Positions 3,104 through 19,808 of a DNA stretch of 21,297 nucleotides are shown one piece after another. The stretch comes from a virus, in IMG/VR virus record IMGVR_UViG_3300035670_001406, positions 1 through 21,297 of that record; one strand, given 5' to 3'. Positions within the stretch are counted from its first letter, which is position 1. Every line of letters begins with the position of its first letter. Below the pieces are notes generated by a model. The model made no database searches. It was not told where the DNA came from and saw only the letters and a list, made by a program, of their open reading frames with translations. Made by a program: the position numbers and the translations under genes.

Positions 3104-4078
3104 TCAGTAACCCTTGGCCTCGAGCACCATCCGACAGGCATCACCCAGGCTCTCGGTCTGCTCGATGGCGGCAACCATCTCCGACTCGGTCACCCCGACC
3201 TCGACTGCGAGACTCCCCCACTTCATGTCAGAGTCTTTTATTAATCTATTCTTTCTTAATTCATAAACCTTATATAACTCTATTAAACCTATGTTTTCTG
3301 TGTTCTTGGCAACCCTATTGGGTTGCCTATCAGGTTGCCTATGTAAGCCATCATCATTGGCAACCGTATCTGGTTGCCTATGTGGCTGCTCTTGATCACC
3401 TATACAAACACCTGTTTCGACCTCTGTTGGCGCAACCTTCGGTTGCGCAGAACGTGGTTTTCTTGCTTTTGGAATTGGCTTTGTGGTGGCCATCAGTTCT
3501 CCCATGGTCTGTGGTTGGTGGGTTCGGAAATTCGATGGGCTTCCAAGGGTGCCCAGCAAGGCCTTCAATCGCCTCATGTTGGCCTGTATCTGCTCTGGTG
3601 ATAGGTCTGGTAGGTCGTTGTCTGCCATGATGCTCCTGAGCTCCTCCTCTCGTTTGCGTTGGTCTGGTGGCCTGGTGTCCTCGATGCCACTAGTGATTGC
3701 AATGGCATCCTGGGCGCTCAGTGTGGTGTCGAACACCACCCGCAGCGTGTTCGATCTCTCGCCCCTGAATCCCTTGCGGGTGATCTCCACATAGCCTGCA
3801 GCTCGCAGCTTGACCAGCTGCTTGGTGATGGCCTGCCTGCTCACCTTCATGTCCTCGGCCAGGCGCTTCTGACTCACCCATGTAATGCCAGCCCGGTTGC
3901 AGTACGAACACAGCACCGCCAGCGTGCGGAAGCAGGCATCAGTCAGCGTCTTGTCTGTGATGGCCCTGATCGGCACCACAGCCACCATGCGCCTGTCTGG
4001 TGGGGCCTCCTTCTCGAGTACCCTCGGCTTCCTCTTTGGCAGCTTGAAATCCACCACGTTTGTCGGCACTGCACTCAT
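3104..4078 (-). CDS. Replication initiator protein, lambda-O-like layout
   Basis: The start was set at ATG 4076-4078 (MSAVPTNVVDFK), which overlaps the TGA of the zinc-ribbon gene as ATGA; 324 residues. Residues about 45-100 form a winged helix of the HTH_36 type: DACFRTLAVLCSYCN, then WVSQKRLAEDMKVSRQAITKQLVKLRAAGYVEI. This is the domain seen in phage replication proteins and plasmid Rep proteins. The middle (about 180-260) is polar, basic and probably disordered. It is encoded by DNA containing repeated GGTTGCC/GGCAACC units, followed by an AT-rich tract and a short C-terminal helical domain (DMKWGSLAVEV...). A DNA-binding N-terminus, internal repeats, an AT-rich stretch and a C-terminal partner-binding domain are the order of lambda O. 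Probable role: binding the repeats and loading the host helicase. No helicase or loader is visible in the window. An alternative is a repressor of similar fold. Confidence 0.75.
   Translation of the reverse strand: MSAVPTNVVDFKLPKRKPRVLEKEAPPDRRMVAVVPIRAITDKTLTDACFRTLAVLCSYCNRAGITWVSQKRLAEDMKVSRQAITKQLVKLRAAGYVEITRKGFRGERSNTLRVVFDTTLSAQDAIAITSGIEDTRPPDQRKREEELRSIMADNDLPDLSPEQIQANMRRLKALLGTLGSPSNFRTHQPQTMGELMATTKPIPKARKPRSAQPKVAPTEVETGVCIGDQEQPHRQPDTVANDDGLHRQPDRQPNRVAKNTENIGLIELYKVYELRKNRLIKDSDMKWGSLAVEVGVTESEMVAAIEQTESLGDACRMVLEAKGY
3234..3448. other. Candidate phage replication origin inside the initiator gene
   Basis: GGTTGCC occurs at 3321, 3333 and 3372. Its complement GGCAACC occurs at 3308 and 3359, and a variant pair CGCAACC/GGTTGCG at 3431-3447. 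The units at 3308, 3321, 3333, 3359 and 3372 fall close to a 13-bp spacing with one position missing. Three form perfect inverted pairs: 3308-3327 (4-nt centre), 3359-3378 (6-nt centre) and 3430-3448 (3-nt centre). Immediately beside them lies an AT-rich tract; 3241-3300 is 78% A+T by count, far above its surroundings. Initiator-binding iterons next to an unwinding element within the initiator gene are the known arrangement of lambda ori. Function here is inferred from layout. Confidence 0.65.
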
Positions 4079-4260
4079 ACCTGCCTGGCTTTCGCTCTCT
4101 CTTTTGCCCGCTCCACACAGGCAGCGCACTTCCACCTCTTATTCATGCCGTTTGGACTCACCTTCCACTTGCCACCCTGCTCTGGCCTCTGGCCCTGGCA
4201 ATGCGAGCACCAGCGCCGGCCAGTCAGCAGCGCAGCCACCTGGCCCACCTTCACACTCAT
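4075..4260 (-). CDS. Small zinc-ribbon protein
   Basis: A 61-residue basic protein with two CxxC pairs, CSHC at about residues 18-21 and CAAC at 45-48. The pair spacing is that of a zinc ribbon. The C-terminus is a charged helix (ERAKERAKARQ). The ATG at 4258-4260 (MSVKVGQ) is used here. A TTG at 4270-4272 is also possible, since it overlaps the upstream TGA and sits five bases after GGGAG; it would add four residues. The protein is probably a DNA- or RNA-binding accessory factor made with the replication initiator, to which it is joined by ATGA. No named family is recognised. Confidence 0.65.
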   Translation of the reverse strand: MSVKVGQVAALLTGRRWCSHCQGQRPEQGGKWKVSPNGMNKRWKCAACVERAKERAKARQV

Positions 4261-4952: not shown

Positions 4953-4965
4953 GAATCCCTCCTAT

Positions 4966-4980
4966 ATATCGGCACGATAT
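4966..4980. promoter_or_regulatory. Operator-like palindrome ATATCG-GCA-CGATAT
   Basis: A perfect 6-bp inverted repeat with a 3-nt centre just upstream of the ribbon-helix-helix gene ribosome site. Its size and place fit an autoregulatory site for a dimeric ribbon-helix-helix protein. A related sequence lies at 5056-5068. Confidence 0.5.
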
Positions 4981-4986
4981 CCCAAG

Positions 4987-4995
4987 TTATCCACA
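4987..4995 (+). promoter_or_regulatory. Perfect DnaA box TTATCCACA
   Basis: An exact match to the bacterial DnaA-binding consensus in the divergent control region. One isolated box does not make an origin; host DnaA may tune early transcription or help replication. Another exact copy (1502-1510) lies inside a coding sequence. Confidence 0.4.
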
Positions 4996-5055
4996 GGCGC
5001 AAGACTGTAAAGCCCCGCAAAGTAGTAGGGGAATTGCATTTGCCTGTTGACAGAG

Positions 5056-5068
5056 ATATCGCGCGGTA
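5056..5068. promoter_or_regulatory. Second operator-like site, ATATCGCGCGGTA
   Basis: It shares the ATATCG half and the 3-nt spacing with the palindrome at 4966-4980, but its second half (GGTAAG) is degenerate. It falls between the TTGACA hexamer and the expected -10 position of the rightward operon, where a bound repressor would block transcription. Confidence 0.35.
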
Positions 5069-5107
5069 AGAGGATGGCATCACTGAACTACCACTAAGGA
5101 GATTCAA

Positions 5108-5761
5108 ATGTTCATTGCCTACTACCGAGTCAGCACCGACAAGCAGGGCCGCTCAGGCCTTGGTCTTGAGGCCCAGCAGGCAGCTGTTAACAAGTTTCTT
5201 GATGGCAAAGAGCACCAGGTTTTTATTGAGGTGGAGTCTGGCAGCAGCCGCAACCGGCCCGAGCTCAACAAGGCCCTGGCCATCTGCCGCAAGACTGGTG
5301 CCACGATGGTGGTGGCCAAGCTGGACCGACTTTCCCGTGATGAGCTGCTGATTCTGACCATTATGGAGAGTGGCGTGCTGGTCAAGTTCTTGGATATGCC
5401 AGACATTGACACCAGCACCCCGGTTGGCCGCTTCATGCTTAACAGCCTGGCCAACGTGGCCGCCTTTGAGAAGCGTCTTATCTCTGAGCGCACCAAGGCA
5501 GCCCTGGCCGCTGCCAAGGCCCGTGGCCAGAAGCTGGGCTCACCCAACCCTAGAGCAGGCGGGCTGGCCGTATCAGCTCACCTGCGTGCACGCAAAGCAG
5601 CCACCATTGCCAAGGTGATGCCCATCGTGCGTGACTTGCAGGCCCTGGGCATGACCACCACCCGCCAGATTGCCCAGGCTTTAACCGAGCGGGGTATCCA
5701 AACGGCCACAGGCGCTACCACCTGGCACTCTGCCCAGGTTTCCCGTCTATTGGCCGCATAA
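5108..5761 (+). CDS. Serine recombinase (resolvase/invertase type)
   Basis: A 217-residue site-specific recombinase. Residues 1-135 form the catalytic domain. Ser9, in YYRVSTDKQ, is the nucleophile, and Arg7, Lys71, Asp73, Arg74 and Arg77 (AKLDRLSRDE) complete the active site. ERTKAALAAAKARG is the start of the long E helix that bridges the dimer. The C-terminus, about residues 183-215 (TTTRQIAQALTERGIQT...WHSAQVSRLL), is a helix-turn-helix DNA-binding segment. The size is that of small resolvases and invertases, not of large phage integrases. It has an AAGGAG ribosome site and is the first gene of the rightward operon, under possible ribbon-helix-helix control. Probable roles are integration or resolution of the phage DNA, or inversion of a segment. 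No target repeats were recognised. Confidence 0.9.
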   Translation: MFIAYYRVSTDKQGRSGLGLEAQQAAVNKFLDGKEHQVFIEVESGSSRNRPELNKALAICRKTGATMVVAKLDRLSRDELLILTIMESGVLVKFLDMPDIDTSTPVGRFMLNSLANVAAFEKRLISERTKAALAAAKARGQKLGSPNPRAGGLAVSAHLRARKAATIAKVMPIVRDLQALGMTTTRQIAQALTERGIQTATGATTWHSAQVSRLLAA

Positions 5762-5928: not shown

Positions 5929-6138
5929 ATGAGCCAGACAGCCGATATCCTAGAGACCCTCAGGCGTGGACCGATCACCCCGCTTGAGGCCCTGCGTGAC
6001 CATGGTTGCCTGCGCCTGGCTGCCCGCATCGAGGAGCTGCGTTCAGAAGGCCACGTGATCGTGACAGAGATGATCAAACACAACGGTAAAAAATTCGGAC
6101 AGTACGTTTTAATCAAGGAGAAGAAAAATGGTAGGTAA
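5929..6138 (+). CDS. Small helix-turn-helix protein, 69 aa
   Basis: A short protein of a type common in phage recombination operons: DILETLRRGPITPLEAL, then GCLRLAARIEELRSEGHVI, then a basic strand region (KHNGKKFGQYVLI). The pattern is a compact winged helix in which ITPLEAL...CLRLAARI gives the helix-turn-helix and the last part the wing. The start has an AGGAG ribosome site. Its 3' end overlaps the exonuclease gene by 11 nt. It is probably a regulator or DNA-binding accessory to the exonuclease/RecT pair. No named family assigned. Confidence 0.7.
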   Translation: MSQTADILETLRRGPITPLEALRDHGCLRLAARIEELRSEGHVIVTEMIKHNGKKFGQYVLIKEKKNGR

Positions 6139-7087
6139 AGTCACGCCAGACACCATGGCCTCAGCAAGCCTCTTGCCGGCCATCATGGGGGTGTCACCCT
6201 GGGCCAGCCCCAACGATGCCCTATCTGGGGTCTTAGAAGCCCACCGTGGGCATGAGCGGCCAGGTCTGTCTGATCCTGAGCCAGCAGAGTGGGGAAACCT
6301 GCTTGAGACCACCATCCTGGAGCAGGCCTGCCTACGCCTGGGGCTCACCCACCTGGACCTGGACCATTCCGAGGCACGGTTCCACCCAATGCTCAAGCTT
6401 GCCTGCAGCTTGGACGGCACCGCAGACGGCAATGGCCTGCTGGTGAAGCACAACCCAGACGCTGGCATCTATGTCATGGATGGCGAGGAGATAGCACTCA
6501 ATGGCATTGGCGTGATGGAGGCCAAGAGCACGGCCATCGAGCCGGCCGACAGCCCGCCCTTGTACCAGGGCCCCATCCAGCTGCAGGCCCAGATGGATAT
6601 CATCGGTGCCGAGTGGGGGGCAGTCTGTACCCTGTTCCGGGGCTCCAGGCTGCGGGTGTACCTGTTCAAGCGGCACAGCCAGACGTGCCAGGAGATTGCC
6701 AAGGCAGTCATCGACTTTCAGCGCCGGGTAGACCAATGGCTAGTGGATGGCAGCATTGACTATTACCCACCTACCAACAGCAAAGACGCAGACCGTACCT
6801 GGGGCCAGGCCGAGGAGGTGGAGGTGGACCTGGGCGCAACGGCCGAGCTGCTGGTCGATGAGATTGTGGTGGCCAAGGCTGAGATCAAGCGCCTCGAGGA
6901 GAAGGTCGAGAAGGCAGAGACCAACCTCAAAAACCTGATGCAGAAGGCGAGCAAGGCAAGGGCTGGAATGTGGGAGATATCCTGGCCCATGCGGAAGTAC
7001 CAAGCGCAGCCTCAGCGGGTGGTGGCGGCCACCGAGGCCAGGGTCGTGCGGCAGTCCACCCTCAAGATCAAGGAGGCCAAGGTATGA
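6128..7087 (+). CDS. YqaJ-type (lambda-exo-like) recombination exonuclease
   Basis: A 319-residue protein of the YqaJ/lambda exonuclease family in the PD-(D/E)XK superfamily, which resects double-stranded ends 5' to 3' to make single strands for annealing. The conserved helix WGNLLETTILEQA holds E60. D96 is in SLDGTAD, E131 and K133 are in VMEAKST, and the following YQGPIQLQAQMDIIG segment carries the conserved glutamine about 20 residues later. The C-terminus (about 235-285) is a charged coiled coil (EIKRLEEKVEKAET...). The ATG at 6128 follows AGGAG. The partner annealing protein RecT lies about 460 nt downstream, with two small genes between. Together they form a phage recombination system of the Red/RecET type. 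Confidence 0.85.
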   Translation: MVGKVTPDTMASASLLPAIMGVSPWASPNDALSGVLEAHRGHERPGLSDPEPAEWGNLLETTILEQACLRLGLTHLDLDHSEARFHPMLKLACSLDGTADGNGLLVKHNPDAGIYVMDGEEIALNGIGVMEAKSTAIEPADSPPLYQGPIQLQAQMDIIGAEWGAVCTLFRGSRLRVYLFKRHSQTCQEIAKAVIDFQRRVDQWLVDGSIDYYPPTNSKDADRTWGQAEEVEVDLGATAELLVDEIVVAKAEIKRLEEKVEKAETNLKNLMQKASKARAGMWEISWPMRKYQAQPQRVVAATEARVVRQSTLKIKEAKV

Positions 7088-7312: not shown

Positions 7313-7555
7313 ATGAGAAAAGTATTAAGAAAAGAATCAAAAGAGGAAACGGTTGCAAAGATTGTTGAGTGCAATACAAGTGCGCCCGACAACCTGAAAG
7401 ATTTGAAAGACCTGGTTCAAGAGTTGTGGTCAGAAAACCTAAGTTTAATAACTGAGATGCGCAAGTTGCGCTATGCCATAGCAGAGTTGAAATATGACAA
7501 CGCAACACTTAAAGCTGAGAAAAGCGGTTACAAAATGGAAGGAGAGGAGAGATGA
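7313..7555 (+). CDS. Small coiled-coil protein, 80 aa
   Basis: A Lys/Glu/Leu-rich helical protein. Residues about 28-70 (NLKDLKDLVQELWSENLSLITEMRKLRYAIAELKYDNATLKAEK) show heptad-like leucine spacing, so a dimeric coiled coil is likely. It has a GGAGAAGAGAG ribosome site, and its stop overlaps the recT start as ATGA. The gene is visibly more AT-rich than both flanking genes (many AAA, GAA and TTA codons), which suggests recent acquisition or different selection. Function is unknown. Confidence 0.65.
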   Translation: MRKVLRKESKEETVAKIVECNTSAPDNLKDLKDLVQELWSENLSLITEMRKLRYAIAELKYDNATLKAEKSGYKMEGEER

Positions 7556-8622
7556 GCAATATCACGACAACCCAGCAAGGGTTTGCCCCGGCCACACTGA
7601 CCGAGGCCATGCAGTTCAGCGAGATGCTGGCCAAGAGCTCGATGGTGCCACGGGCCTACCAGGGCAAGGCAGAGGATGTGCTGGTGGCCATGCAGTGGGG
7701 CCGCGAGATTGGCCTGGCACCGCTGCAGGCCCTGCAAAACATTGCAGTGATCAATGGCAAGCCCTCGGTTTACGGTGACGCAGCCATGGCGCTGGTGCAG
7801 GCCAGCCCGGTCTGCGAGGATATTGAGGAGACCATCGAGGGTGAGGGCACGCCGAACCCGGTGGCCGTTTGCATTGCCAAGCGCAAGGGCCGCAAGCCGG
7901 TGGTGGCCAGGTTCAGCCTCGAGGATGCCAAGCGTGCCGGCCTCTGGGGCAAGCCAGGACCATGGCAGGCATACCCGAAGAGAATGATGCAGATGCGAGC
8001 CCGAGGGTTTGCCCTGCGGGATGCCTTCCCTGATGTGCTCAAGGGCCTGATCACCGTGGAGGAGGCCCAAGACTTTCCCGATCAGGACCGGCCGGCCAAC
8101 GTGGTCAACCTGCCCCGCACCCGTAACCCCTTGGAGGCATTACCTTTGAGTGAAATCACGCAGCCTATTGAGCAAACCGAAGACCCGCAGCGGGAATATG
8201 TCGAGGTCGAGCAGGTGAATCAGATGCTTCAGGAGGAGGCCGAGAGCCGCACAGATGAGGTGCTCACCCCGGTGGCTGCCGAGTCCATTGCCAAGCAGCT
8301 CACGCAGCAGCTCGAGGATGCCGGCATTGAGGTGGTCGAGGTGAAGGAGTACACCTGGGCACTAGGCGTACCCGGCAAGCCAGACATTCCCTGCAACAAT
8401 TATGAGGAGTGGGCCCACCAGTACGAAGAGATGGCAGGCAAGGTGGCGAGGAGCAAGCTGGCCCCGGATGCCAAGCTCAAAAAATTGGAGGAGCTAAAGA
8501 AGGCGAACACTGCCATGTTTGGAAAGTTACGCACCGAGCAGTCCCTGCAGCACACCAAGCACATGGTGGCTAGGCGCAGTCAGATTGAGGCAGAGGTTTC
8601 TGACAAAGGCGGGCAGGCGTAG
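7552..8622 (+). CDS. RecT-family single-strand annealing protein
   Basis: This 356-residue protein has the conserved N-terminal core of phage RecT proteins: TLTEAMQFSEMLAKSSMVP, then GKAEDVLVAMQWGREIGLAPLQALQNIAVINGKPSVYGDAA, then a K-R-K-G-R-K-P-V-V-A-R-F strand region and the WQAYPKRMMQMRARGFALRDAFPDVLKGL helix with its conserved R-A-R-x-F-A-L-R. The protein coats single strands made by the upstream exonuclease and anneals complementary DNA. The C-terminal third (after about residue 190) is acidic, variable and contains Glu-rich helices. ATGA coupling to the small coiled-coil gene supports the start. Confidence 0.88.
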   Translation: MSNITTTQQGFAPATLTEAMQFSEMLAKSSMVPRAYQGKAEDVLVAMQWGREIGLAPLQALQNIAVINGKPSVYGDAAMALVQASPVCEDIEETIEGEGTPNPVAVCIAKRKGRKPVVARFSLEDAKRAGLWGKPGPWQAYPKRMMQMRARGFALRDAFPDVLKGLITVEEAQDFPDQDRPANVVNLPRTRNPLEALPLSEITQPIEQTEDPQREYVEVEQVNQMLQEEAESRTDEVLTPVAAESIAKQLTQQLEDAGIEVVEVKEYTWALGVPGKPDIPCNNYEEWAHQYEEMAGKVARSKLAPDAKLKKLEELKKANTAMFGKLRTEQSLQHTKHMVARRSQIEAEVSDKGGQA

Positions 8623-8623
8623 C

Positions 8624-9382
8624 TTGGATGCGGTAGAGGTCCCAAGGATTTACCAGGCCCAGGGGGAGAAGGCATCGCCCTCCTGGTGCCAGGCATTCGC
8701 CGAGGGATGCGGTGGCACCATCACCCAATCGCAGACAATTAAGGATGGGCCGGTGGCATTGTTTGGCAGCCTGCAATTGAGGAGGGTGCTCGAGGCGGCC
8801 ATGGCAGAGGGTCGGACCTGGTACTACGGTGACAAGGCTTACTTTGGTCGAGACGTTTATTACCGGGTGACCAAGAATGCCTACCAGTACACAGACTTTA
8901 AGCTCAATGCCACGCCCCACAGGCTTGAGCGCACCGGGATGCGCATCAAGCCCTGGCGCAAAGGTGGCAAGAAAATCTTGATCTGCCCGCAGTCCGAGCT
9001 GTTCCATGAGTGGCATGGCATACCCCAGGCGCAGTGGATTAAGGCAGTCGAGACCGAGCTGGCCAAGCACACCAAGAAACAAACCGCCCTCCGGTTCAAA
9101 ACCTGGAGCAGGGCCGAGCAAGACTTTGAGCTGGCCCTCGAGGGTGTCCATGCGGTGGTGGTATTCACTAGCATCGCTGGGGTGCAGGCAACCCTGCATG
9201 GTGTGCCCTGCTTTGCCACCCATGATTGTGCGAGCGCCAGGTTTGGCAGCATGGACCTTAGTCGTATCGAAGACCCGGTCAGGCCAGACAACCGGGAGCA
9301 GATGGCCTGGGAGCTGGCAGATAATCAATGGACACTTTTAGAGATGAGGAGCGGAATGGCATGGGAACATCTGACGAAATGA
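8624..9382 (+). CDS. GT-B-like glycosyltransferase/capsule-synthesis-type protein
   Basis: A protein of about 252 residues. The long open frame begins inside recT, but coding-like sequence begins near IYQAQGEK, so a TTG start at 8624, two bases after the recT stop, is the best choice; no ATG fits. The N-terminal half has AFAEGCGG and a helix-rich nucleotide-type domain. The C-terminal half has HAVVVFTSIAGVQATLHGVPCFATH, matching the S-x-A-G-x-x-A-x-x-x-G-V-P pattern of GT-B glycosyltransferases and capsule/KpsC-type enzymes, where the sugar nucleotide is bound. No membrane segment is seen. It forms a trio with the FkbM methyltransferase and GT9-like gene downstream. Function as a sugar transferase is inferred from motif and context. 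Confidence 0.55.
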   Translation: MDAVEVPRIYQAQGEKASPSWCQAFAEGCGGTITQSQTIKDGPVALFGSLQLRRVLEAAMAEGRTWYYGDKAYFGRDVYYRVTKNAYQYTDFKLNATPHRLERTGMRIKPWRKGGKKILICPQSELFHEWHGIPQAQWIKAVETELAKHTKKQTALRFKTWSRAEQDFELALEGVHAVVVFTSIAGVQATLHGVPCFATHDCASARFGSMDLSRIEDPVRPDNREQMAWELADNQWTLLEMRSGMAWEHLTK

Positions 9383-10038
9383 AAGAATGGCGAGGCTTGT
9401 GGTTTCCCCCAGGCGAGAAGCATCAGACCGCCTGGATGGCCAAGAACCTGGCAGTGGTGGACGGCAAGCCGGCCTACCAATACCACAAGTATCGGGCTGC
9501 CAAGGATGCCTGCAACAACCGAAGGGTGGCCATTGATGTGGGCGCTAACGTGGGCCTGTGGTCTCGGGTGATGCTGCTCGACTTCCAGGTGGTCCATGCC
9601 TTTGAGCCAGTGCCCATGTATCGGGAATGCCTCAAGCTCAATGCGCCTGGTGCCAATGTCTACCCTTATGGCCTGGGCAATAAGCCGGCAGTGGTGGACA
9701 TGGCTTGCAGAACCGAGGGCAGCTACGGTGACACAGCACCGGCCAGCGGCAGGGATGGTGAATTTATCGTGGCCAAGGGGGTTGAGATTGTCACACTCGA
9801 TAGCCTGGGCATCGAGCTGGTGGACCTGATCAAGATCGACTGCGAGGGTTTTGAGTCTTTTGTGATCGAGGGCGCAGAGCAGACCATCAGAACCTGCAAG
9901 CCGGTGATTATTGTCGAGCAGAAGAAGGGCAACGGTAAGGCATTCTCATTACCAGATGACCATGCTGTGTCGCTGCTCAAGTCCTGGGGCATGAGGGTTG
10001 AGAGGGAAATGTCTGGCGATTACCTGATGGTTTGGTGA
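9361..10038 (+). CDS. FkbM-family methyltransferase
   Basis: A SAM-dependent methyltransferase of the FkbM type, which usually O-methylates sugars in polyketides or surface glycans. With the ATG at 9361 (AGGAG nine bases upstream) it has 225 residues. Motif I is VAIDVGANVGLWS (about 56-68), the acidic residue binding the ribose is in HAFEPVP (79-85), LIKIDCEGFE (156-165) is the family signature, and VIIVEQ follows at about 182-187. Two other starts are possible: ATG 9328, with no clear ribosome site, and ATG 9379, which overlaps the upstream TGA as ATGA. It follows the GT-B-like gene and overlaps the GT9-like gene by one base (TGATG), pointing to a single glycan-building task. Confidence 0.85.
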   Translation: MGTSDEMKEWRGLWFPPGEKHQTAWMAKNLAVVDGKPAYQYHKYRAAKDACNNRRVAIDVGANVGLWSRVMLLDFQVVHAFEPVPMYRECLKLNAPGANVYPYGLGNKPAVVDMACRTEGSYGDTAPASGRDGEFIVAKGVEIVTLDSLGIELVDLIKIDCEGFESFVIEGAEQTIRTCKPVIIVEQKKGNGKAFSLPDDHAVSLLKSWGMRVEREMSGDYLMVW

Positions 10039-10808
10039 TGGGCTGGGGTGATGAGCTCATGGCCGCAGGCGAGGCACAGGCCAAGGCTGCTGGTCGTGAT
10101 ATCAAGGTGGCCATCAAAGACCGCAATGGCCAGGTGCGCTGGCATGATGCCTGGGAGAATCACCCACTGATTGCCAGACCTGGCCAGCCTTACCAAGACA
10201 GCATCACCAATGGCCCAGGCGTGCGCAGCTATACCAATGGGGTGCACGCTGGCAGGTGGGTGTGGCGCAAGTACACACCAGTACCGGCAGATATCTACTT
10301 CAGTGAGGCAGAGAAAAAATTTGCATCCAGCCTTGGGTCTGGGTTTGTTGTCATCGAGCCCAACCTCAAGGGCAAGAAGGAGTCTGTCAATCGAGACTGG
10401 GGATGGGACAAGTGGCAGGCCCTGGTCAAGCTGATGCCCAAGGTGCAGTGGGTGCAGCTCGGCCCGGCCGGGGCACGCACCCTGCGCAAGCTCAGGTTTA
10501 TCCAGACAGATACGCCACGCCTGATGGCAGCCGCCCTGTCAAAGGCCGTGGCATTTGTAGCACCAGAGGGTGGGCTGCATCACACAGCGGCAGCAGTGCG
10601 GGTGCCAGGGGTGGTCATTCATGGGCACTTTAATTCTGCTGGGTTGACAGGCTACCCAGGCATGGTGCATCTATCTACCGAGGAGCTGGGCTGCGGCAGT
10701 CAGCTTTTCTGCCAGGCCTGCCGGGATGCCATGGAGGCCATCACCCCAGAGGCCGTGGCCGGCCATCTTCAAACCATCCTAGATCAGGCAGTGGCCTCGG
10801 ATAAATAG
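10038..10808 (+). CDS. GT9-like (heptosyltransferase-type) glycosyltransferase
   Basis: A 256-residue protein resembling family 9 glycosyltransferases, which add heptose or similar sugars to the lipopolysaccharide core. The N-terminal GWGDELMAAGEAQ matches the GxGD loop of the family. The C-terminal domain has FVVIEPNL, DKWQALVKLM, WVQLGP, then a RLMAAALSKAVAFVAPEGGLHHTAAAV segment with the conserved G-G-x-x-H-x-A-A-A, followed by VVIHGHFNS. A cysteine group near the end (CGSQLFCQAC) is common in phage members of this type. The start is ATG 10038, sharing a base with the FkbM stop; a TTG at 10032 is less likely. Its 3' end overlaps the endolysin gene by 25 nt on the opposite strand. Confidence 0.8.
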   Translation: MGWGDELMAAGEAQAKAAGRDIKVAIKDRNGQVRWHDAWENHPLIARPGQPYQDSITNGPGVRSYTNGVHAGRWVWRKYTPVPADIYFSEAEKKFASSLGSGFVVIEPNLKGKKESVNRDWGWDKWQALVKLMPKVQWVQLGPAGARTLRKLRFIQTDTPRLMAAALSKAVAFVAPEGGLHHTAAAVRVPGVVIHGHFNSAGLTGYPGMVHLSTEELGCGSQLFCQACRDAMEAITPEAVAGHLQTILDQAVASDK

Positions 10809-16535: not shown

Positions 16536-19500
16536 CTACTTTTCTTCAATCGCACGCAGGGCACCCTCAGACAATGGCAAGCTTGGTGGCTTGCGGCCCG
16601 TCTTGTCCTCGTATGCCTTGCGCTGGTCAATCAGTTGTTGCAGCTCTGGGAACTCGGTCAACATCAATTTTTTGGCCAGCTCGGTGTAGCGCCTTCTGGC
16701 GTTTGTCAGCTTGTCCAGCCTCTCGCCCTTGGAAGCAGGGCGCTCAACGCCAGTATCTTTATCAATGGTCATTTTGTAATACGGGTCTGCAATAACCGCT
16801 ATTAGCCCGTCTGCCAAAGATGGAAGCTGCTGCTCAAGCTCCCTGGTTAGCTTTGCTCTTTGGTCCTGGGACATGGCAGATATCTCTTGCCGTTCATAGC
16901 CCAAAACCTCCAGGGCAAACACAGACCTGGTCGGGTAATTGATCAGCTCTTTGTACCGCTCAAACTGCTGGTCATTAAGCTTGATCATGGACTCGCCAAG
17001 CGTATTGCTAATTCTTGGAAATCCGCTGCGCAGCTCGTCGAGCTCTCGGTTAATTGCGTTGTATTTCTTGTCTTGGATTCTGGTCGCAAGGAATGCGGTC
17101 AGATCACCAAACCCTTGCTTGATCGGCTCATACCAATCATTCCGCTCCACGAACATCTGGCTTGAGAAGTAAAGCAGTCTTGACCTATGGGCCTGCACGG
17201 CCTCGTAGACCGGCCGCAGCGACATCCTCCAGCCCGGCAGATCGAGATACTCGTACTGGTTTTCTGGGAGTGCAGACCGCTTGAACGGGTCAACGTACCG
17301 CTCTATGTTTGAAACGATGCCAGTCGGAGCCAGGCCAAACGTGCCGACACTTTGGGCAACAACCAGACCAGATGCCACCGTCTGCTTTTGAAATGCCCCG
17401 ACAATCCTCTCGGCTTGGCTAGCAGTATCAAGCGCCTCCTCTTCGGACTGTGGCCTAATAATGGATGCAAGCTCAGAAGCAAACTGAACCATCGGTTGGT
17501 TTTCCAGCATATAGTTGACAGTGGCCAAGCTCATCTCAAAGATCAGATTTTCTTGTGCGTCTGGGTCATCAAGCTTTAGGGCTGTATCTCTTACGTCTGC
17601 CCATCCAGCAACAATCCCAGAGATTGGGTCATAGCGCCCGTAGTTAACCCAGGTATATGAACCGTCTGGCTTTTTGATTCCGACAGAATATGGCTCATGC
17701 GTCTGCAACCAGTTTCGACGCTCCTTGGGATTAGTTGGCCCGTATCCTGTAATGGTGACGTTGCCACCAGAAATGTAATCGGCCAGCATGATGCTGCTGC
17801 CCACGGCCGAACTAAAGCCCACCTTTGCCAGGGCCACAGACCTCTCCGATTCAGTTTTCGGATTTACCATGGCCTTCCAAAATCTAGGCATGATCACAGC
17901 CAGCGGGGTGCGCTCTTGGATTCTTAGGGCAATCTGCACTGGGGTCTTAAAGAACGGGAACCCAAGAAGCTTTGCAAGTGGATGAGCAAAAAATGATTGA
18001 GCCTGCCCAAGAAATACGCCAGGCAGCTCGTCTTGAAATGTGCCTATCCTTGCAAATTCAGATGCCTGTGCAAAGGTTGAGTCTGCCTCAATGGTTCGAA
18101 GGAAAACATCCCTTGCCGCATTGGTTGCATCTTCAACAGACTTCCCGGCGTTAAGGGCAGAATTGAAAGCTTTGCCAGATGCATCTGCGGCAATCATCTC
18201 CATTTCCATGCCGCGCAGTAGCGCCTTGTAGCCTTCGTCAACCGTGGTCAATACCCTAAAGCCGGGAGCTCGAGTGGCAATGCCAAGATAGTCAATCGTC
18301 TTGCCAAGGGTGGTTTCTGGCAGCACCCCAAAGTTTTCCGCTTTGGTAGCAATCCTAGATTGATCGAACTTGCTGGCCATGTCTGCCGGTATCTCTGTCT
18401 TGGCAGCGTCCCAAGCAGCAGCCAGCGCCTGGTTCAAATACTTAGGTATAACCCGGACACCGTGCAGCACAGCGTCTCTAGCAACGCTATCGCCCCTCAT
18501 CATGGCGGCCAGATATCTTTCGGACATCATCAAAGATGTGTGTATTGGGGTGCCCAAAAAATTGAAGAGGTGCGTCTGCGGCCCAGAAACAATTGCGCTC
18601 TGGAATATCTCCGCAGCTGAGTCAAGACCGGCTCGGCCCAGACTCAACATCCGTCTTACAAAGGTTTGTTTCTGCTGGGTGCCCGGCAAAGACTTGTAGA
18701 GCTGGGCTGCAAAACGTACCTTTTCACGTCCACCCAACGCATCCAAAAGTCTTTCTGCGTCTGTCGATTCACCGGGCACTGATGCGCCACGCACTACGTC
18801 TGCAATGGTCTCTGCGCCCTCTGGTATGGTCTGCCCCCCGGTGGGTGCAATGCCAGCCTGTTCAATGATCTGACGCATCGCAGCAGAGCGCCCAGCGTCT
18901 GGGCTAATCATTATGCGATTGACGGCCAGGCCACGTCCGTAATCAGCTACGTTGCCAAGGGATGCGGCAGAAGAGTAACCCTCGATCTGCATCAACATTG
19001 CAAACCTAGCCAGGTCTTCGTCGGTCCCGGTCTTAAGATAGGCATTTGCTGCCGACTCAGTCTCTACTGCCAGGTCCAGCTGGGCAAAACGCACGGCCAT
19101 GGATTCGGCATCAGTAAATGGCCGGTCTCCAGGCTTGCGGGTAAGGGTCATCTGCAATGCTTGACCAGGCGATATTTCCCGAGCCTCTGCTTCTATCTGA
19201 TCGAAGGTTCTGCCAGCCCTGCGTTGCTGGTCAATATAGTTTTTGTAATACTGGACCGAGCCAGACAGGAATCTTTTGATCGAATCCTCAGAGTCAATGA
19301 CATCAAGGTTGGGTCTGACCCGTGGTGGCTTGCCCTCTGTTGGCGAGCCCTCAACAATATCTAAGAAGCGCCTGGCTTCTGCTTGAGACACAGGCTCAAC
19401 TATTACCTTGTCGCCAATAACACGAACCTGTTGCTGGCCAGAAAGGGCATTGATCTGTTCTGCGGTTGCCTTGGGGGCTTCCTGTGGGCCGGGTGGTGGC

Positions 19501-19808
19501 TTTACCTCTGGTTGGTCGCCGCTTGGCGCTTCCAGTACCTTTTCTTCCTGGGTCTTTTGTTCCAGCTTTTGTTCAATCCGCTTGGCTGGCTGCGTTTCTG
19601 CCGGGCCCATTTCCTTGGAAATGCCCTTAAGAATCCCAATCAATGCCTCACGTTTTCCAGCAACCTCTACTGGCTCAGGCAAATCTTCCGGGGCCGGTGG
19701 CATATCAATAGGTGGCGGCAGGCTAGTGGGCACAAGCTCAGACTCGGTGGCAAACTCCTCCACCCCGGTCATTTGGTCAATCCGCTTTTCTAGTGGTTTG
19801 ATGGCCAT
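16536..19808 (-). CDS. Large internal virion / DNA-ejection-type protein, 1090 aa
   Basis: A very long soluble protein placed just before the tail fibre in transcription order, where podoviruses encode internal core or ejection proteins. Residues about 25-150 are Pro/Glu-rich and probably disordered. The middle has the GPQTHLFNFLGTPIHTSLMMSERYLAAMMR segment and the region around GYGPTNPKERRNWLQTHEPYSVGI...YGRYDPISGIVAG, both of which recur in large phage virion proteins. The C-terminus is helical and charged. Hydrophobic stretches near SSAVGSSIMLADYISGG could insert into membranes. No lysozyme or peptidase motif was seen. The start (MAIKPLEKRI) is five bases from the upstream gene end. Function as an ejected internal protein is inferred; a tape-measure role is less likely. 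Confidence 0.6.
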   Translation of the reverse strand: MAIKPLEKRIDQMTGVEEFATESELVPTSLPPPIDMPPAPEDLPEPVEVAGKREALIGILKGISKEMGPAETQPAKRIEQKLEQKTQEEKVLEAPSGDQPEVKPPPGPQEAPKATAEQINALSGQQQVRVIGDKVIVEPVSQAEARRFLDIVEGSPTEGKPPRVRPNLDVIDSEDSIKRFLSGSVQYYKNYIDQQRRAGRTFDQIEAEAREISPGQALQMTLTRKPGDRPFTDAESMAVRFAQLDLAVETESAANAYLKTGTDEDLARFAMLMQIEGYSSAASLGNVADYGRGLAVNRIMISPDAGRSAAMRQIIEQAGIAPTGGQTIPEGAETIADVVRGASVPGESTDAERLLDALGGREKVRFAAQLYKSLPGTQQKQTFVRRMLSLGRAGLDSAAEIFQSAIVSGPQTHLFNFLGTPIHTSLMMSERYLAAMMRGDSVARDAVLHGVRVIPKYLNQALAAAWDAAKTEIPADMASKFDQSRIATKAENFGVLPETTLGKTIDYLGIATRAPGFRVLTTVDEGYKALLRGMEMEMIAADASGKAFNSALNAGKSVEDATNAARDVFLRTIEADSTFAQASEFARIGTFQDELPGVFLGQAQSFFAHPLAKLLGFPFFKTPVQIALRIQERTPLAVIMPRFWKAMVNPKTESERSVALAKVGFSSAVGSSIMLADYISGGNVTITGYGPTNPKERRNWLQTHEPYSVGIKKPDGSYTWVNYGRYDPISGIVAGWADVRDTALKLDDPDAQENLIFEMSLATVNYMLENQPMVQFASELASIIRPQSEEEALDTASQAERIVGAFQKQTVASGLVVAQSVGTFGLAPTGIVSNIERYVDPFKRSALPENQYEYLDLPGWRMSLRPVYEAVQAHRSRLLYFSSQMFVERNDWYEPIKQGFGDLTAFLATRIQDKKYNAINRELDELRSGFPRISNTLGESMIKLNDQQFERYKELINYPTRSVFALEVLGYERQEISAMSQDQRAKLTRELEQQLPSLADGLIAVIADPYYKMTIDKDTGVERPASKGERLDKLTNARRRYTELAKKLMLTEFPELQQLIDQRKAYEDKTGRKPPSLPLSEGALRAIEEK

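Follow-up and report, generated by a model that had tools for sequence, protein, structure and literature searches.

Iteron plasmids (RepE, RK2 TrfA) and those with pSK41-type RepA combine a winged-helix initiator, iterons, an A+T-rich unwinding element and, in some, a DnaA box; their origins usually lie beside the rep gene. In phage lambda, the iterons and an A+T region are found in the middle of the O gene (PMC7466680). Here we describe a candidate origin of the lambda plan in the IMG/VR virus record IMGVR_UViG_3300035670_001406, whose whole stretch of 21,297 bases is called the window below. The record is classed as linear, and since long relatives carrying the same gene measure 32-36 kb against 21 kb here, it is probably a genome fragment. 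Its positions 3241-3448, embedded in a winged-helix initiator gene, very likely constitute a replication origin.

The resemblance to lambda ori is one of layout: in both, dyad-symmetric iterons bound by the initiator (here by prediction) stand in the initiator coding sequence, with an A+T tract on the 3' side. The initial annotation had called the locus lambda-like, which holds for this plan only, as no homology to lambda O is detectable (blastp E 0.40). The four 18-bp iterons annotated in lambda lie about 20-24 bp from one another, and neither their sequence nor their spacing is that of the window family. The PHROG families 391, 678 and 345, shared with lambda O, match the window protein weakly, 391 in mostly different regions of the profile. 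Unlike lambda, some relatives carry a DnaA box as well as a half-site on the far side of the A+T tract, and the scan of window genes, which took in part of the small open reading frames (ORFs), recognised no lambda P-like loader. Given the same plan, no protein similarity and different iterons, the locus would work like lambda ori and is not shown to be a member of its family.

Three other systems invite comparison. In the PLE satellites of Vibrio cholerae, whose initiator is RepA_N, origin specificity was shown experimentally, and covariation of the initiator DNA-binding domain with the origin was demonstrated together with module swapping (PMC8263062); there the origin is intergenic and whole domains covary, whereas in the window family it lies in codons and the covariation goes down to single helix residues. 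In geminiviruses, residues of the Rep iteron-related domain correlate with short iterons across related viruses (PMC12548392, PMC10611410). Those viruses have single-stranded DNA and replicate by rolling circle; their Rep is unrelated to the window initiator, and their iterons are not in coding sequence. Iteron plasmids are treated in a review (PMC4980987); an adjacent A+T-rich element, a feature of iteron-type theta origins, is present by sequence in the window family, with the difference that the origin here is inside the initiator codons. The weak fold matches include a Rep-DNA complex (5kbj), and fold and sequence matches are too weak for homology. In PLSDB, one plasmid matches the N-terminal half of the initiator weakly (E 5e-4). 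The only match in annotated phage records is gp55 of Methylophilales phage MEP301, a marine OM43 phage (PMC8024684), with 34% identity over the N-terminal 43%. This 201-residue protein is annotated as hypothetical and has gene neighbours similar to those of the window initiator; no linker repeats are evident on reading its sequence. In the literature searched, with subscription journals mostly outside it, we found no description of this initiator-gene origin and no phage family joining an origin in initiator codons to a single-residue correlation over a large natural panel.

Repeats and A+T tract within the initiator gene

The features of the locus are listed below by position in the window. 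A half-site is GGCAACC in gene sense, GGTTGCC being its opposite orientation.

3104-4078, minus strand: initiator gene, 324 codons, read from 4078 to 3104
3797-3838, minus strand: codons of the putative recognition helix, residues 81-94 (R81 at 3836-3838, K86 at 3821-3823), a helix in the AlphaFold2 model
3302-3544, minus strand: linker codons carrying the repeats, residues 179-259, predicted disordered, low confidence
3430-3448, no strand: upstream short-spacer dyad, GCGCAACC-TTC-GGTTGCGC
3372-3378, minus strand: half-site 1, left arm of dyad A, GGCAACC in gene sense with CATA directly before
3359-3365, plus strand: half-site 2, right arm of dyad A, 6-nt spacer, AATG after it in gene sense
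3333-3339, minus strand: half-site 3, single, a direct repeat 12 nt ahead of half-site 4
3321-3327, minus strand: half-site 4, left arm of dyad B
3308-3314, plus strand: half-site 5, right arm of dyad B, GGCAACCC-TATT-GGGTTGCC on the plus strand
3241-3300, no strand: A+T-rich tract, proposed unwinding element, also coding for the start of the C-terminal domain

The gene matches Pfam HTH_36 (E 1.2e-8) and, weakly, PHROG replication-initiator families (best E 2.2e-7), which agrees with the earlier placing of the repeats inside a winged-helix initiator gene. Its best PDB folds are regulators of the MarR/Rrf2 type, generic winged-helix matches with poor template modelling (TM) scores. The AlphaFold2 model (77 sequences) has a mean predicted local distance difference test (pLDDT) score of 70.7. 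An N-terminal winged helix occupies approximately residues 37-114, middle helices extend to 177 and C-terminal helices span 265-321; residues 179-259, mostly below a pLDDT of 50, form the linker between the winged helix and the small helical C-terminal domain. From their place in the HTH_36 match and the model, we infer that residues 81-94 are the recognition helix. An in-frame GTG at 4135 would extend the protein by 19 residues; relatives start at MSA, that is at 4078.

All five repeat units stand exactly where they had been reported (3308, 3321, 3333, 3359 and 3372), at start-to-start distances of 13, 12, 26 and 13. In gene sense their order is > < at 3378-3359, then > > < at 3339-3308, and the CATA of half-site 1 stands before half-site 3 as well, while AATG follows the first dyad. 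The variant pair noted earlier at 3431-3447 is also present, but it runs from 3430 to 3448, one base wider on each side; in gene sense (3448-3430) it reads GCGCAACC-GAA-GGTTGCGC. Comparable dyads with short spacers, in its own class, are present at this end in relative L004. One further exact copy, the sixth, is found at 3170 and had not been listed before; it is not counted as a half-site because relative L003, of a different iteron class, has it too.

Exact copies number 13 in the window against 4.8 expected, a count reached by none of 100 shuffles. Dyads of the form CAACC-N2..9-GGTTG occur in the 21.3 kb only at dyads A and B and the upstream dyad (0.24 expected). The cluster in the initiator gene is stronger than in any of 200 synonymous-codon shuffles or 200 codon permutations, and is therefore not forced by the protein sequence. 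As claimed initially, the two orientations are translated differently, as R-Q-P and V-A. Rfam and tRNA scans of the window gave no matches. The generic CAACC dyad was of little use in 20 long relatives, where it gave chance matches elsewhere and missed some classes.

Directly after the repeats in gene sense comes the A+T tract (3300-3241), whose reported composition is confirmed at 47/60, or 78%; 20-nt bins there have 65, 80, 85 and 75% A+T.

Covariation of half-sites with the initiator

Relatives were collected by six overlapping IMG/VR protein scans, giving 109 complete genes non-redundant at 95% nucleotide identity (a first set of 77 and a second of 32). The single scan made of GTDB genomes returned no prophage relatives. 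With 6-mers counted on both strands, 63 of the 77 first-set genes have a linker cluster beyond synonymous shuffles (p<0.05; about four expected by chance), mostly at 0.54-0.69 of gene length. The half-site sequence varies by lineage: nGCAAC, GGACAC, [ACT]ACAAC, GACAAC or GTCAAC. In aligned examples (window CATAGGCAACC, L033 CATAGTCAACC, L031 CATACACAACC) the complementary arms match and the same > < .. > > < order is kept. Within one genome all half-sites change together, so the encoded amino acids change together as well: H-R-Q-P with V-A, H-S-Q-P with V-D, H-T-Q-P with V-V. This joint change amounts to a constraint on DNA. Selection on DNA rather than on a protein repeat had been suggested from the window, and both the set-wise change and the shuffle excess in 63/77 genes bear it out. 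The comparison with relatives that the initial annotation had proposed favours its reading, more strongly than foreseen: position, architecture and A+T tract persist in the relatives, whereas the repeats are replaced set-wise, in step with the recognition helix.

With at least five half-site classes, none having the lambda iteron sequence, the proposal of a new iteron family stands. A collection-wide scan for degenerate dyads with the class bases left free found 10 contigs: nine were already named members of the initiator family, and the remaining one, L113, likewise codes for the initiator and has GTCAAC sites.

For 96% of 106 genes, the 60-nt stretch richest in A+T is found 0-100 nt past the last half-site. 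A perfect DnaA box, TTATCCACA, is found in 37 of the 109 genes, among the repeats and always at 0.6-0.7 of the gene; synonymous shuffles give 2.7 such genes on average, with a maximum of 6. Past the A+T tract, many relatives carry one more half-site, single and matched in class (K 20/24, Q 36/49, R 17/23).

This far-side half-site lies 45-140 nt past the last dyad, often as GTTCT-N-half-site (L053, L079, L190, L247 and others). Although not in the initiator gene, two perfect copies of the DnaA box TTATCCACA are located in the window, at 4987-4995 and 1502-1510. The former is in the intergenic region 4953-5107, from which the minus-strand gene block and the serine-recombinase gene diverge; in relative G001 a DnaA box lies near the corresponding strand switch (21853). 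Linkers of the GGACAC class in L016, L077, L094 and L064 retain one GGCAACC copy (CATAGGCAACC then ATAGGACAC), which may be left over from an older class or be tolerated as a site.

We assigned classes by template counts, earlier clustering by dyad arms having been noisy. Among 73 classified first-set genes, residue 81 is invariant within every class: R81 goes with GGCAAC and GGACAC, Q81 with the ACAAC class, K81 with GACAAC and GTCAAC. Two genes with CGCAAC and TGCAAC sites also have R81. Applied to the 32 held-out genes, the rule from these 73 was correct by single best template in 31, with one tie. When first-base variants are summed, residue 81 agrees with class in 109/109 genes (R for nG.., Q for nA.., K for GA/GT). 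Residue 86 is N in 16/16 GGACAC genes and in 0/93 others, and residues 81, 83 and 86 jointly give the class in 108/109. Ranked among 89 variable N-terminal columns, residue 81 comes first, with a mutual information equal to its whole entropy, followed by residue 86 (0.83) and the next column (0.60). Arginine with guanine and glutamine with adenine are classical contacts, so the R81 and Q81 classes fit. There is thus an apparent one-residue recognition code in this initiator family, and the covariation is strong, though indirect, evidence that each initiator recognises its own repeats.

Correlation alone would be weak, because the domain and its sites are neighbours and are inherited together. 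Pairs with a similar N-terminal and a dissimilar C-terminal domain have their class in common in 27/27 cases; where the N-terminal domain is dissimilar and the C-terminal similar, the class differs in 14/15. As a guide to class, the N-terminal domain is far superior to the C-terminal one. On a tree built without the helix, residue 81 changes 13 times, and so does the class. In the pairs L006/L078, L094/L250 and L342/L310, the domain outside the helix is 82, 90 and 81% identical, while the helix is 48, 52 and 43% identical and the repeats differ; for L006/L078 the DNA on both flanks is nearly the same. Between the window and L003, DNA identity is 98% in the A+T tract, 41% in the iteron linker and 64% in the N-terminal domain: the part for recognition was swapped, and the proposed opening element and the C-terminal part stayed.

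It is an old question of replicon biology how an initiator and its many sites switch specificity together with function kept. More than 100 natural variants in at least five site classes, several pairs with near-identical flanks among them, make a ready panel for it; the code predicts which protein pairs with which repeat, each prediction calling for one binding assay. Origins in uncultured phages of the same group could also be marked from sequence alone. We tentatively entertain, at somewhat less than even chances, a natural and nearly complete code in which two or three residues where one helix begins (81, 83, 86) would set every half-site of an origin carried in the codons of the same gene, and lineages would repeatedly have switched helix and sites together. 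Perhaps they thereby avoided competing for the same origin with relatives or satellites in a co-infection, but what selected for the switching is a matter of speculation.

Proposed mechanism and alternative explanations

The sequence itself shows the site architecture, the constraint at DNA level, the A+T tract, the DnaA boxes of relatives and the covariation of residue with repeat; binding, unwinding, helicase recruitment and origin use in vivo we infer from them. In the proposed mechanism, the N-terminal winged helix would bind the GGCAACC half-sites through the helix starting at residue 81, initiator pairs probably sitting on the dyads. The bound copies may bend or strain the adjoining A+T tract, which would then open, after which the C-terminal domain would recruit the host replicative helicase or its loader; in relatives with a DnaA box, host DnaA could assist. 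As the site occupies codons of a predicted disordered linker, its DNA can change set-wise with the protein unbroken.

Several observations weigh against the origin reading or the code. Other residues of the DNA-binding domain also correlate with class, the domain and the repeats being linked. The tree, of 116 columns, has weak resolution: no more than about 4 changes are required by its well-supported branches alone, and a sign test on them (4/4, p 0.125) has too few for significance. The window's own initiator gene has no DnaA box, and no class-specific half-site lies beyond the A+T tract in the window. A cumulative GC-skew minimum, which the initial annotation had looked to at the site, is instead at 6402 in the window, about 3 kb off; none is consistently found at the initiator gene in five full-length relatives, and over these and the window together the skew follows neither site nor gene strand. 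No helicase loader at all was recognised among the genes scanned in this probable fragment, which include part of the small ORFs, and the literature searched yielded no binding or replication data for the initiator family.

The repeats could be an operator through which the initiator only regulates its own or downstream genes, the origin being elsewhere. Winged-helix proteins of this kind are often repressors, as the MarR/Rrf2-type folds recall, and covariation shows DNA recognition, not its purpose. However, the sites are some 630-770 nt inside the coding sequence, no similar dyad cluster is found near any promoter of the window, the matched PHROG families are replication initiators, and the A+T tract conserved after the sites in 96% of genes, with DnaA boxes among the sites in 37/109, suits an origin better; we regard an operator as unlikely. 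Covariation speaks against a site for recombination or packaging located in the initiator gene by coincidence, although inverted half-sites look like recombinase sites and the window contains both a serine recombinase (5108-5761) and a terminase small-subunit-like gene (1806-2252). In 109 genes the class goes, in cis, with the recognition helix that the initiator gene itself encodes, and several relatives switch helix and repeats together with unchanged flanks, which leaves such a site very improbable.

Dyads with loops of 3-6 nt could also fold as RNA or single-strand hairpins (attenuator, processing site or terminator) in the initiator mRNA, and arm-to-arm compensatory change is indeed seen. 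A hairpin would need only complementary arms, yet all half-sites of a genome have one sequence, unpaired direct copies included, and this sequence tracks a protein residue; with no Rfam match and no terminator-like site found at the repeats, we give hairpins very little credence. Least probable of all, to the point of being negligible, is a low-complexity repeat of the protein without DNA function: disordered linkers often drift into repeats, and this one is predicted disordered, but its two orientations encode different residues (R-Q-P, V-A) and the clusters beat synonymous shuffles in 63/77 genes.

Other genes of the window

The serine recombinase, of the DNA-invertase kind, is followed by RecE-like (6128-7087) and RecT-like (7552-8622) genes; MEP301 too carries a resolvase-domain protein and a YqaJ recombinase. 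Three genes are possibly glycan-modifying: 9328-10038 (FkbM-type methyltransferase, Pfam E 1.3e-19), 10032-10808 (weak glycosyltransferase-9 match) and 324-1007 (conserved unknown, phrog_28018). Finally, 16536-19808 encodes a 1090-residue product resembling internal virion protein D, with about 25% identity to marine podoviruses, which suggests that the virus is a podovirus.
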